From assembly GCF_000154785.2 (NCBI RefSeq), contig NC_015741.1, forward strand, positions 29,579 to 93,578: DNA of 64,000 bases, in the 5' to 3' direction. Each line of letters begins with the position of its first letter. The stretch's first letter is position 1. This document shows, piece by piece, positions 3,648 through 64,000 of the stretch. This DNA comes from Roseobacter litoralis Och 149 (GTDB lineage Bacteria; Pseudomonadota; Alphaproteobacteria; Rhodobacterales; Rhodobacteraceae). Below the pieces are notes generated by a model, which saw only the letters and a list, made by a program, of their open reading frames with translations, was not told where the DNA came from and made no database searches. The position numbers and the translations under genes are program-made.

Positions 3648-4498
3648 CGGTCCCCATATTACGAACTTTGAGCGCGTTGCGCAGTGCGACGCGAGAGTGG
3701 CATGCGGCAGGCGAGACGATTGGCGTCGTGCCGACGATGGGTGCCTTGCATGACGGACACCTCAGTCTCGTGGCTGCGGCCAAGGCAAGCTGCGATCGGG
3801 TGATCGTGACGATCTTTGTGAACCCCAAACAGTTCAACAAGGCCTCTGATCTTGCGAGCTACCCGCGCACCGAAGAAGATGATGCCCGCAAGCTGGCCCG
3901 ATTTGATGTGGATGCGGTCTATGCGCCTGATGTCAGTCAGATTTACCCGGAGGGATTTTGCACGAACGTCTCTGTGGCGGGCATGACGGATGTGCTGTGC
4001 GGGGCGCACCGGCCCGGCCATTTTGATGGTGTTGCGACCGTCGTGACCAAGCTCTTTACCCAGACGTCAGCAGACAAGGCATTCTTTGGCGAAAAGGATT
4101 TTCAGCAGTTGATGGTTGTGCAGCGCATGGCGCGTGATCTGGATATTCCGATTGAAGTTGTTGGCTGCCCGACCATCCGCGAAGAAGATGGCCTAGCGAT
4201 GTCCTCGCGCAATCTGTTGTTGTCGGACCGCGCGCGCACCATGGCGCCCCGGATGAATGAGATCATGCAGGAGGCTGCCACTGCCTTGTCACAGGGTGTG
4301 CCCTTTGATGCGTTGCAGGCCACGGCGCTCAGTCGGTTGACCGGCGCGGGGTTCATCGACGTGGATTATTTCGAACTGCGCTCCTGTGCGACGCTATCGC
4401 TTCTTGATCACGCATCCGAACCTGCGCGCCTGTTTGCTGCGGCATGGCTCGCAGGGGTGCGGCTGATCGACAATATCGACGTGCCGGTGGCGCGCTAA
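3644..4498 (+). CDS. panC: Pantoate--beta-alanine ligase (pantothenate synthetase)
   Basis: ATP-dependent ligase joining pantoate and beta-alanine, the last step of pantothenate synthesis. 284 aa, a normal length. Motifs are [14 protein letters not shown] (HIGH-like nucleotide site), VNPKQFN, the pantoate-binding [22 protein letters not shown], and MSSRN (KMSKS-like). The start overlaps the panB stop by 4 bases. The TAA stop at 4496-4498 coincides with the left end of an inverted-repeat element described separately. The enzyme is cytoplasmic. Confidence 0.95.
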
Positions 4499-4593
4499 AG
4501 CGTCATGCGAAAAACCTGAATCACGTTACGCTGCCTGAAATCATAGATTTCAACGTGTTAAGTAATGTTTCAGGTATTTCGTCAGACGCGCTA
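4496..4593. repeat. Inverted-repeat element, copy 1 (MITE/REP-like)
   Basis: A ~98-bp sequence also present at 62456-62560. Both ends carry an imperfect ~25-bp terminal inverted repeat (left TAAAGCGTCATGCGAAAAAC; right end, read in reverse, begins TAGCGCGTCTGACGAAATAC). An internal dyad GAAATC/GATTTC lies in the middle. It fills the whole gap between two convergent genes: its left end contains the panC TAA stop and its right end the TAG stop of the peptidase gene. No coding capacity. The RNA could fold in either direction, but there is no T-run typical of an intrinsic terminator. Confidence 0.85.
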
Positions 4594-61877: not shown

Positions 61878-62297
61878 ATGACACGAACTTTAGCAGTAGT
61901 ACTCGCAATGACATTCTCGGCAGCACCGGTATTTGCCGAAGGTGACATCGAAGCAGGTGAAAAAGCATTCAACAAGTGCAAGTCTTGCCACCAGATCGTT
62001 TCCGATGCTGGTGATGAAATCGTCAAAGGCGGTCGGACAGGCCCGAACCTCTATGGGGTCTTGGGTCGTCAGGCGGGCACTACCGACTTTAGATACGGTG
62101 ACGACCTCGTTGCCGCCGGTGAAGCCGGGCTTGTCTGGGATGCCGCAAACTTCGCGGAATATGTTCAGGACCCACGCGCCTTCCTGCGCACGTATCTGGA
62201 TGATTCCAAAGCGAAATCCAAAATGGCATATAAGCTGAGAAGTGGTGGCGAAGACATCGCAGCCTATCTTGCGTCGGTGACCGGTAGCTCTAGCTGA
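61878..62297 (+). CDS. cycA: Soluble cytochrome c2-type electron carrier
   Basis: 139 aa with a Sec signal peptide (TLAVVLAMTFSAAPVFA) and a single haem motif CKSCHQI; the likely Met ligand is in KSKMAYKL. Size and order fit the cytochrome c2/c550 class that re-reduces the photo-oxidised reaction centre and shuttles electrons from bc1. AAGGAG lies eight bases before the ATG. A terminator follows. The gene symbol is by position and type; a different c-type name may be used in this genus. Confidence 0.85.
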   Translation: MTRTLAVVLAMTFSAAPVFAEGDIEAGEKAFNKCKSCHQIVSDAGDEIVKGGRTGPNLYGVLGRQAGTTDFRYGDDLVAAGEAGLVWDAANFAEYVQDPRAFLRTYLDDSKAKSKMAYKLRSGGEDIAAYLASVTGSSS

Positions 62298-62356: not shown

Positions 62357-62455
62357 GCTTTGCCGTGACAAGCACAGAGCAGCGTTTCCTGTATAACTTC
62401 GACAGCCCGCGCCACTTTTTGAATATGCACCTGCGTTAGCGCGCGCGGGTATGGC

Positions 62456-62560
62456 TAAAGCGTCATGCGAAAAACCTGAACCACATAACGCTGCCTGAAA
62501 TCAAAAATTTCAACGCGTTACGTGATACTTGATGTGTCAGGTATTTCGTCAGACGCTCTA
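62456..62560. repeat. Inverted-repeat element, copy 2 (MITE/REP-like)
   Basis: About 105 bp, near-identical over much of its length to 4496-4593: the same left end (TAAAGCGTCATGCGAAAAAC), the same central CTGAAATC/ATTTCAACG dyad and right end GGTATTTCGTCAGACGC. This copy has a few extra bases before the right arm, and its outermost right bases (CTCTA) make the terminal repeat longer than in copy 1. It lies between the cytochrome terminator and a small membrane-protein gene. Apart from these two features, 62357-62647 shows no gene. Confidence 0.85.
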
Positions 62561-62647
62561 AAAACCAACCTTCATGTCAAAGAGACGTTGCGTTCCGCAG
62601 TCGTTCAGCGACAATGCTGGCTCGACAGATAAAACGCAGGCCACCAG

Positions 62648-62881
62648 ATGGACAATCGCAAGCTCACCTCCCTTTTCGAAACCACAGGCTCGGTGTCAGC
62701 GATGGTCTATGCCGTTCTGATCGCCTCGAACACCGGTAATGAAATCCTCGGGTTTTCCCTGCTGCTGATCTCCGCCAGTCTGTTTGCCGCCTGGGCTGTC
62801 ATCGACCGACGCTGGACCTTCCTGCTGTTGCAAGCTTTCTATGGCGGCTCTGCAATTCTTGGATTGATCCGCTGGGGGTAA
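62648..62881 (+). CDS. Small multi-span membrane protein, 77 aa
   Basis: Three hydrophobic segments (about 15-30, 33-52 and 55-75) interrupted by a short basic turn DRRW. I cannot name a family. The ATG at 62648 has only a weak purine stretch upstream. It converges on the DnaA-like initiator gene with 16 bases between stops. Confidence 0.5.
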   Translation: MDNRKLTSLFETTGSVSAMVYAVLIASNTGNEILGFSLLLISASLFAAWAVIDRRWTFLLLQAFYGGSAILGLIRWG

Positions 62882-62897: not shown

Positions 62898-63578
62898 TCA
62901 GATCACGACCCGTACCTCGGATACGGTGCTGTCGATTTCACGCAAGGCGACAAGCACCCGTTTTTCCAGATGAGTCTGAACATAGGCTGCATGAAACCGG
63001 GACGGCGCGCGCAATGTGACACGCCCCCCTGCCCTTTCGATCCTGTCTAACGCCGCCATCCATGAGGCATAGGTCGCCGGGTCTTCGGCGTGCAGCAGCG
63101 CTTGCGCCAGTACCCATTCCGTCCCTGTTGAAATGTCGGGCTCCGGCACCACGCCCTTCTGCGGCAAGGGCACAACCTTGGGCGTGTCGGTATTGCTCAT
63201 GCGCAGCTCGAAATCAGGCCCCACAGCGGACCACTGCGGTTCTGTGTCGGACAGGATCTGGTCAATACCCAAAGCATATTCGCTCACACGCCCCCGTGCG
63301 CCCTGACGCTTGACGATCAACCAGCCCCGCGCACGCAGCAGGGCCATCTCACGCTTGACCGTGCGTTGGTCTACTGACCACAGGTTGGCGATTTCCCGCT
63401 GCCCCACGGCCAGTTCATCGCGTATCCAATTGTACCGTGCTGTGATGAGGGTCATCAGCCTCAATACGCGTCGCTGATCATGCTTGTCTCGGGAAAGCGC
63501 AAAGGCGCCCATCGCTGTCAAAAGATCATACTTTCGCGCAGAGGATCCGCGACCCACAGGTTTTGTGGAATGCATCAT
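62898..63578 (-). CDS. DnaA-like plasmid-type replication initiator
   Basis: 226 aa. A winged-helix-like region at about 35-105 (RDELAVGQREIANLWSVDQR, TVKREMALLRARGWLIVKRQ) is followed by a linker. A C-terminal domain at about 150-226 resembles DnaA domain I (EWVLAQALLHAEDPATYASW, GGRVTLRAPSRFHAAYVQTH, then LEKRVL). There is no AAA+ ATPase domain, so it is not the chromosomal DnaA. This architecture fits the DnaA-like replicases of Rhodobacterales plasmids. AAGGG stands just before the start. Iteron-like repeats lie upstream, as for an origin. No parAB is inside the window; it may lie beyond 64000. Confidence 0.75.
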   Translation of the reverse strand: MMHSTKPVGRGSSARKYDLLTAMGAFALSRDKHDQRRVLRLMTLITARYNWIRDELAVGQREIANLWSVDQRTVKREMALLRARGWLIVKRQGARGRVSEYALGIDQILSDTEPQWSAVGPDFELRMSNTDTPKVVPLPQKGVVPEPDISTGTEWVLAQALLHAEDPATYASWMAALDRIERAGGRVTLRAPSRFHAAYVQTHLEKRVLVALREIDSTVSEVRVVI

Positions 63579-63749
63579 CTGCCCTTCTGGTTCGTTTCGC
63601 AGGGTTTCCTGCGGTGCCTCATCGCCGGACTGATTGTTCAGCCTCTTGTCAGGTCAGGATAGCGCTATTGAGACGTTTTTCCAAGCCCTTCCCTGATTTG
63701 CGTCCGCTTGCCCGATTCTGTCAAGCACGCAGTTCAGTTTTGGGGTTCT

Positions 63750-63870
63750 CTCATCAAACTCAGAAAAGATATTTAGGTATTAATGGTATTGGGGGACATC
63801 CTGTCTGACCCCCAATTGCACTGTTTTGTCCCCCAATAGGTGCAGATGCCGGTGAAGGTGTCCCCCATAT
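63750..63870. other. Candidate replication origin: iteron-like repeats beside an AT-rich stretch
   Basis: Four copies of a TGTCCCCCAATA-like 12-mer lie upstream of the DnaA-like gene: 63787-63798 (reverse orientation, TATTGGGGGACA, a perfect inverse of the third), 63806-63817 (TGACCCCCAATT), 63827-63838 (TGTCCCCCAATA) and 63859-63870 (TGTCCCCCATAT). Spacings of the three direct copies are 21 and 32 bases, close to two and three helical turns. An AT-rich run (about 63755-63790) adjoins them and could be the unwinding element. The repeats could equally be operators for autoregulation. Nothing recognisable was seen in 63579-63750 or 63871-64000. Confidence 0.6.
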
Positions 63871-64000
63871 TTTGTGCCCTACTCTAAAAGACGCGGCGGC
63901 TGACTCTGAAAGCACGCACCGAATCGTTTGCCGCTCTATCTGTTTCATAGACATGTGGGACAGGGTTTGCCTGTTTTGCTGTCCGAGTATATTCCCTTTT

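Follow-up and report, generated by a model that had tools for sequence, protein, structure and literature searches.

The photosynthesis gene cluster (PGC) of Roseobacter litoralis OCh149 harbours a replication and partition unit of the DnaA-like I type, which separates the convergently oriented genes cycA and bchO. We consider it highly probable that replication starts from iterons bound by the Rep protein of this unit, that initiation is linked to CcrM and that ParA and ParB act on a palindromic parS array extending into bchO and bchD. A DnaA-like I module within the PGC was already published in 2018, hence the headline of the first-pass annotation of this DNA, a DnaA-like plasmid initiator with iterons directly beside the photosynthesis genes, was known before. 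Such modules were described for five of six photosynthesis plasmids including that of R. litoralis, always in the same central position of the PGC (Brinkmann et al. 2018, PMC6052148, from which we also take the DnaA-like I assignment of the R. litoralis plasmid), while 13 strains, all DnaA-like I except one, were reported later (Liu et al. 2019, PMC6739100). Newly added here is the anatomy of the module, namely an initiator with a probable role in helicase recruitment, methylation sites at the origin and a probable centromere reaching into the chlorophyll genes. The passages of PMC6052148 and PMC6739100 consulted contain no mention of a palindrome array in bchO and bchD or of a pair of CcrM sites.

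For the scattered occurrence of photosynthesis in the Rhodobacteraceae, loss is debated versus plasmid-borne transfer followed by reintegration, and the case for reintegration, as far as consulted here, rests on trees (PMC6052148). If true, a centromere within bchO and bchD would provide a physical marker, as a chromosomal PGC with decayed sites would once have been plasmid-borne; such decayed palindromes have so far been found in R. denitrificans only. It would also mean that the segregation need of a mobile element shapes metabolic enzymes.

Replicon identity and position of the module

The window, i.e. the whole stretch of 64,000 bases that was analysed, comprises the terminal part of a contig of 93,578 b (G000:C4:29579-93578), which is the already known photosynthesis plasmid pRLO149_94. 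The R. litoralis chromosome is a separate contig of 4,505,211 b, and a Pfam scan detected a full DnaA with domain I, AAA+ and C-terminal domain within its first 1.5 kb. A chromosomal location of the window is ruled out by these two observations. Thus, the photosynthesis plasmid proposed in the first-pass annotation is supported by the separate contig, by parAB and by plasmid homologues of Rep, while the alternative offered there, a chromosomal region that once captured such a plasmid, is inapplicable to this contig; a related state is, however, seen in R. denitrificans. The plasmid has been described as circular (PMC6052148). The two ends of its record join into an intergenic region, and its layout and size range are as in uninterrupted contigs of relatives.

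The suggestion to look for parAB just past position 64,000 proved fruitful: genes for a ParA-like (434 aa) and a ParB-like protein (355 aa) are located at bases 101-2469 of the record and start 100 b beyond the end of the window. They are followed by bchO, bchD and bchI. On pRLO149_94, as in relatives, parAB is divergent from the replicase gene, which is the DnaA-like I layout. On the opposite side, the distance of 0.6 kb to the last photosynthesis gene was given correctly, as was the 226-aa reading frame itself (Table 1).

Table 1 Features of the replication module and its left border (positions in the window; strand '.', none assigned)
Feature	Position	Strand	Basis or remark
cycA (cytochrome c)	61878..62297	+	left border of the module
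ORF77, small reading frame adjacent to rep	62648..62881	+	retained in R. denitrificans without rep and par
rep, DnaA-like I plasmid initiator, 226 aa	62898..63578	-	Pfam, plasmid homologues, structure model
rep, C-terminal DnaA domain I-like part (residues 150-226), likely helicase-recruiting	62901..63131	-	fold, conserved residues
rep, winged-helix domain (residues 12-128), likely iteron-binding	63195..63545	-	structure model, fold matches
Conserved block GGACGCAAAT, downstream of the -35 element	63696..63705	-	rep-parA alignment
Proximal candidate CcrM site GANTC, abuts the -35 hexamer	63714..63718	.	37/39 aligned regions
TTGACA, likely -35 element of the rep promoter, inside block TTGACAGANTC	63719..63724	-	block in 37/39 regions, own included
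AT-rich flank (66% AT), possible unwinding element	63740..63786	.	base composition
Iteron 1, TGTCCCCCAATA, in opposite orientation to iterons 2-4	63787..63798	-	motif search
Iteron 2, TGACCCCCAATT	63806..63817	+	motif search
Iteron 3, TGTCCCCCAATA	63827..63838	+	motif search
Iteron 4, TGTCCCCCATAT	63859..63870	+	motif search, rep-parA alignment
Distal candidate CcrM site GANTC, conservation island of five bases	63921..63925	.	37/39 aligned regions

The Rep protein

Pfam, a structure model and fold comparison support the architecture originally proposed for Rep, in which a winged-helix region is joined to a C-terminal part resembling DnaA domain I, without an AAA+ domain. The family DnaA_N matches residues 164-213 with E 6.5e-5 and 23.0 bits, slightly below the curated cut-off of 24.6, and a Crp-type helix-turn-helix matches residues 38-91 with E 0.004, below the Pfam cut-off. 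Neither AAA+ nor the DnaA C-terminal domain is among the six Pfam families listed for Rep up to E 1. DnaA_N is present in 97 of 98 aligned relatives, in which residues W155 and W173 are invariant and F195 and Y199 occur in 97. The 15 Pfam families listed for the 98 Rep members at E 0.01 include neither AAA+, which the same scan detects in the species' own chromosomal DnaA, nor Rep_3. Fold matches of the winged helix are CRP/MarR-type winged helices as well as the initiator domains 4pql and 4pt7, with tied scores.

Rep thus shares the domain I fold (residues 150-226) with chromosomal DnaA, but lacks AAA+ and the DnaA C-terminal domain, carries its domain I at the C-terminal end and probably binds DNA via the winged helix instead. 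In outline, it may work like the RepA_N initiators of staphylococcal plasmids, in which an origin-binding domain is combined with a domain that possibly assists in loading the replication machinery (PMC5703833). Homologues of the protein were found on 288 plasmid records, one of which is annotated as plasmid replication protein DnaA-like-I, and ParA/ParB genes are located beside the rep homologue in 16 of 19 annotated plasmid neighbourhoods; two of the remaining three end at the edge of the record and one belongs to a record without annotation. Rep would bind the iterons via its winged-helix domain, open or mark the adjacent AT-rich DNA and, judging from fold and conserved residues, recruit the host helicase DnaB through its C-terminal DnaA domain I.

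The rep gene of Gemmobacter aquarius (L138 2501-3184) is labelled as antibiotic efflux pump MexK in PLSDB (rgi prediction), which looks like a false resistance call.

Iterons and candidate CcrM sites in the origin

The motif TGWCCCCCAW occurs at five sites in the 64-kb window against 0.43 expected, and four of these five are clustered at 63789-63868. Two such sites within 100 b were found in none of 300 second-order Markov surrogates of the window. Since the full 12-mer with up to two mismatches gives six matches in the window compared to 3.3 expected, a count that is not significant alone, the case for iterons rests on clustering. The four repeats initially described are real, but do not form a simple direct array (63787-63798 is inverted), and the second and fourth differ from TGTCCCCCAATA at two and three bases, respectively. 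The AT-rich flank is also present, but modest.

For comparison, 49 rep-parA intergenic sequences were reduced to 39, our own included, by removal of nine duplicates and one sequence longer than 600 b. As the rep search in the family located loci for the best 30 matches, these regions represent nearer relatives; 16 of the 19 annotated plasmid regions yielded a usable rep-parA region. The strict iteron core is present at least once in 34 of the 39 regions and at least twice in 24, and is missing from five. With regard to DnaA boxes, the origin of pRLO149_94 contains no site with zero or one mismatch to TTATCCACA, and TTATNCACA occurs in just one of the 39 regions.

A scan for consensus sigma-70 promoters and terminators returned no matches, and the likely -35 element of the rep promoter is located in an aligned block (Table 1). 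GANTC, the candidate CcrM site, reaches a density of 4.94 per kb in rep-parA regions against a background of 0.98 per kb and is the only one of 16 motifs of the form XYNY'X' with two positions at 37/39. Both sites occur together in 35 of the 39 regions; among the 37 regions that contain the proximal block, 35 have a distance of 173-219 b between the two. On the named plasmids, at least two GANTC sites between rep and parA were found in 12 of 16 cases and block TTGACAGANTC in ten of 16; the block is missing in L126, L127, L128, L138, L142 and L144. GANTC is methylated in Sulfitobacter (PMC9025767), and CcrM acts on a repABC replicon in A. tumefaciens (PMC11514494). Like the plasmid studied here, the second replicon of A. 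tumefaciens, also an alphaproteobacterium, has GANTC motifs at its origin and in the promoter of its rep genes; it differs in its initiator RepC, its origin within repC and the experimental nature of the evidence, which is indirect in our case (PMC11514494). The candidate CcrM site at the rep promoter and the second one about 200 b away probably tie initiation to the cell cycle by methylation.

Distribution of rep with the PGC

At the thresholds used, 99 of 394 genomes of the family gave a rep match, 164 a match for acsF and 165 for bchI. Together with 19 genomes of the genus, at least 26 contigs carry both rep and PGC (counted by hand), and in 23 of these 26 bchO is the direct neighbour of the module, the orientation of which does not vary. 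The other three are G401, whose contig ends after rep, G310 with the module elsewhere, and G160 with a distant rep (44%) inverted in the same interval. A different rep (38%) occupies this interval in Sulfitobacter sp. S190. In the genus Roseobacter, acsF was found in 17 of 19 genomes, 13 of which combine it with a closely related rep on one contig. The convergent gene ends that border the interval between cycA and bchO may explain its tolerance for insertions. The rep-less PGCs used for comparison comprise 18 from the family scan, hand-picked with acsF and bchI close together, and all four from the genus scan.

On the photosynthesis plasmid of strain S190 (L127), hemE and hemC are located between rep and hemA.

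A palindrome array reaching into bchO and bchD

Six copies of the palindrome GTCCCCGCGGGGAC, near variants included, were found on pRLO149_94, all in the 4.6-kb stretch that runs from the origin via parA to bchD; the R. ponti plasmid likewise has six, largely at corresponding locations. Across 21 rep-bearing PGC loci, the half-site GTCCC gave 130 matches, compared to 0 to 8 for 19 permuted half-sites. The core palindrome was found in bchO of 20, in bchD of 21 and in at least one of the two genes of 22 out of 26 rep-bearing PGCs, and in neither gene of any of the 22 rep-less PGCs (the survey leaves out G401 and G310 for the reasons given above). It is missing from hemA (0/20), acsF (0/17) and crtI (0/22) of rep-bearing PGCs and was found in one of 23 bchI genes, namely in G230. 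The four rep-bearing PGCs without the core palindrome in bchO and bchD are G116, G335, G160 and S190, the reps of which are more distant (60, 56, 44 and 38% identical, respectively). According to a codon-level site table covering 29 of the 48 PGCs, one column of bchO and two columns of bchD each hold the palindrome in 16 of 29 genomes, rep-less ones included.

In some plasmids, the core has other outer bases (GTTCCCC, CTTCCCC). The exact GTCCC form is present in four of 17 loci (16 named loci and L143), and outer-base variants occur in L132, L133, L139, L140 and L141. G105 (L061) carries the variant palindrome GTTCCCCGCGGGGAAC in parB, bchO and bchD, which suggests that ParB specificity and the bch genes change together.

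The plasmid of Salipiger sp. CCB-MM3 (L134 1701-1987) contains nine palindromes tightly clustered between parA and rep.

Sequence divergence was analysed at three of the four bchO/bchD palindromes of R. litoralis (the codon alignment did not recover the fourth) in nine relatives, including five of the twelve rep-bearing ones in the genus. Compared to R. litoralis, two of 42 palindrome positions are changed in these five, whereas the remainder of bchO and bchD diverges by 27-35% (Fisher p = 6e-4 to 9e-6). In rep-less R. denitrificans, G394, G396 and G408, 9, 17, 18 and 19 of the 42 positions differ, no less than elsewhere in the genes (19% in the rest of the genes for R. denitrificans). Hence, in these four Roseobacter PGCs, which lack the module, conservation of the palindromes does not exceed that of the remaining gene sequence.

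The pattern is also visible at the protein level: VP[AVT]GT peptides occur in 18 of 23 BchD proteins from rep-bearing PGCs compared to none of 22 from rep-less PGCs, of which a single one, that of R. denitrificans, has PAGT. SP[RQ]G is found in 20 of 24 BchO proteins of rep-bearing PGCs, but also in three of 22 rep-less ones. With the plasmid proteins held fixed, nine (bchD), 14 (bchO) and 286 (parA) of 2,000 synonymous shuffles reached the observed number of palindromes. Shuffles with a fixed BchD average 0.53 palindromes, so the protein sequences already carry part of the signal.

While the palindrome array itself is present, we infer its binding by ParB. ParA and ParB would segregate the plasmid via a palindromic parS array with the core TCCCCGCGGGGA, which runs from the origin via parA as far as bchO and bchD. 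With moderate confidence, we propose that bchO and bchD were made into a plasmid centromere, that selection for ParB binding wrote VPAGT into BchD and SPRG into BchO, that this constraint vanishes upon loss of the module, so that fading sites mark formerly plasmid-borne chromosomal PGCs, and that the two CcrM sites gate initiation.

PGCs without rep

The four rep-less Roseobacter PGCs belong to G394, G395, G396 and G408, with G395 being R. denitrificans, in which the PGC resides on a chromosome of 4,133,097 b. In a PGC tree calculated without G401 (missing data), a single clade of the four is rejected (p-AU 9e-8), indicating that the module was lost more than once, barring regain; the branch separating G408 is weakly supported (55). 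Outsourcing of the PGC to plasmids and later reintegration have been proposed before (PMC6052148).

Between cycA and bchO, R. denitrificans keeps ORF77 (95%), and its homology to the plasmid stops at 62891, 7 b short of the 3' end of rep. ORF77 is located beside rep in R. litoralis (G000), G266, G404 and G410, and among the rep-less PGCs fetched it was found in R. denitrificans only. Between species with a Rep identity of 73-79%, ORF77 shows 94-97% identity; it yielded no Pfam family at E 0.001 and has no match among the named plasmids. In seven rep-less gaps between cycA and bchO searched for remnants of rep and par, ORF77 of R. denitrificans was the only clear one; the gap of G342 contains cycA-like pieces. 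The palindromes of R. denitrificans are two, three and four mismatches away from the consensus. Palindrome relics in G394, G396 and G408 were also considered, but rejected, since these sites resemble R. litoralis to no greater extent than the remaining gene sequence does.

A palindromic element of approximately 107 b was observed at 62451-62565 of the window, with a copy at 4494-4593. Six more full or partial matches (83-87%) are present in the fetched stretches of the R. denitrificans chromosome, and the element lies near ORF77 in both species.

Alternative explanations

Could the 226-aa protein be a transcription regulator rather than an initiator? Its winged helix is similar to those of CRP and MarR regulators, but we regard this as scarcely credible given the homologues on plasmid records, the adjoining ParA/ParB genes in 16 of 19 annotated neighbourhoods, the DnaA domain I in the protein itself and the fact that the DnaA-like type is in print as a plasmid replication system (PMC6052148). 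With respect to the sites in the DNA, it appears rather unlikely that the GANTC pair is conserved as a by-product of the promoter without any control by methylation: the proximal site is indeed fused to the -35 hexamer, yet at the distal site exactly five bases are conserved amid variable flanking columns. We also think it unlikely that the GTCCCCGCGGGGAC palindromes serve as operator or titration sites bound by Rep instead of ParB. Such a role would fit the half-site GTCCCC, which forms part of the iteron core TGTCCCCC, and the palindrome directly upstream of parA. However, in L132 and L133 the outer bases of the palindrome are changed (GTTCCCC) while the iteron core TGNCCCCC is kept, thus the two motifs vary independently, and of 26 rep-bearing loci 21 have palindromes within parA and 13 within parB. 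Binding by ParB therefore remains our preferred reading of the array.

The direction of the PGC transfer has been interpreted differently by Kalhoefer et al. 2011 (PMC3141670), with the chromosomal PGC of R. denitrificans being ancestral and pRLO149_94 having moved out. The R. denitrificans chromosome contains almost the entire pRLO149_94 sequence, with about 78 kb in synteny (PMC3141670), which is compatible with this view; nevertheless, we consider it very unlikely. In the PGC tree, R. denitrificans is nested within rep-bearing PGCs and the rep-less Roseobacter clade is rejected, ORF77 is kept at the junction, palindromes at two, three and four mismatches from the consensus are present and its BchD is the only one of 22 rep-less BchD proteins with PAGT. 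These points speak against an ancestral chromosomal PGC in R. denitrificans.

A candidate intermediate of reintegration

In G397, a PGC with intact rep, parA and parB is located on a contig of 1,074,209 b. To the left of the PGC, this contig carries genes for ribosomal protein S2 and EF-Ts (954-956 kb), Obg (947-948 kb) and a tRNA-Ser (942.5 kb), and between 940 and 952 kb, a region that includes tRNA-Ser and Obg, it shows colinearity to the chromosomes of R. litoralis, R. denitrificans, R. ponti and G396. Since a 16S rRNA search matched none of six genomes, that of R. litoralis included, and was hence uninformative, the chromosomal part was recognised by a tRNA and by gene order. From approximately 961.6 kb onward the contig matches PGC plasmids of relatives, with the stretch from 1015 to 1035 kb matching the R. 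ponti plasmid. The plasmid-like part, with junctions near 957-960 kb and 1071-1074 kb, is flanked by direct repeats of 1.3 kb, which are 96.6% identical and adjoin IS30-like transposase genes (HTH_38 and rve domains). A misassembly was considered: the composite at the left junction is unique in the genome (closest copy 96%), but as the contig ends inside the second repeat, a misjoin may still account for the arrangement. G397 is thus a candidate for an intermediate of reintegration and, if confirmed, one in which the replication module is still intact. Integration of a roseobacter plasmid, although a different one, has been confirmed by long reads (PMC13386836).
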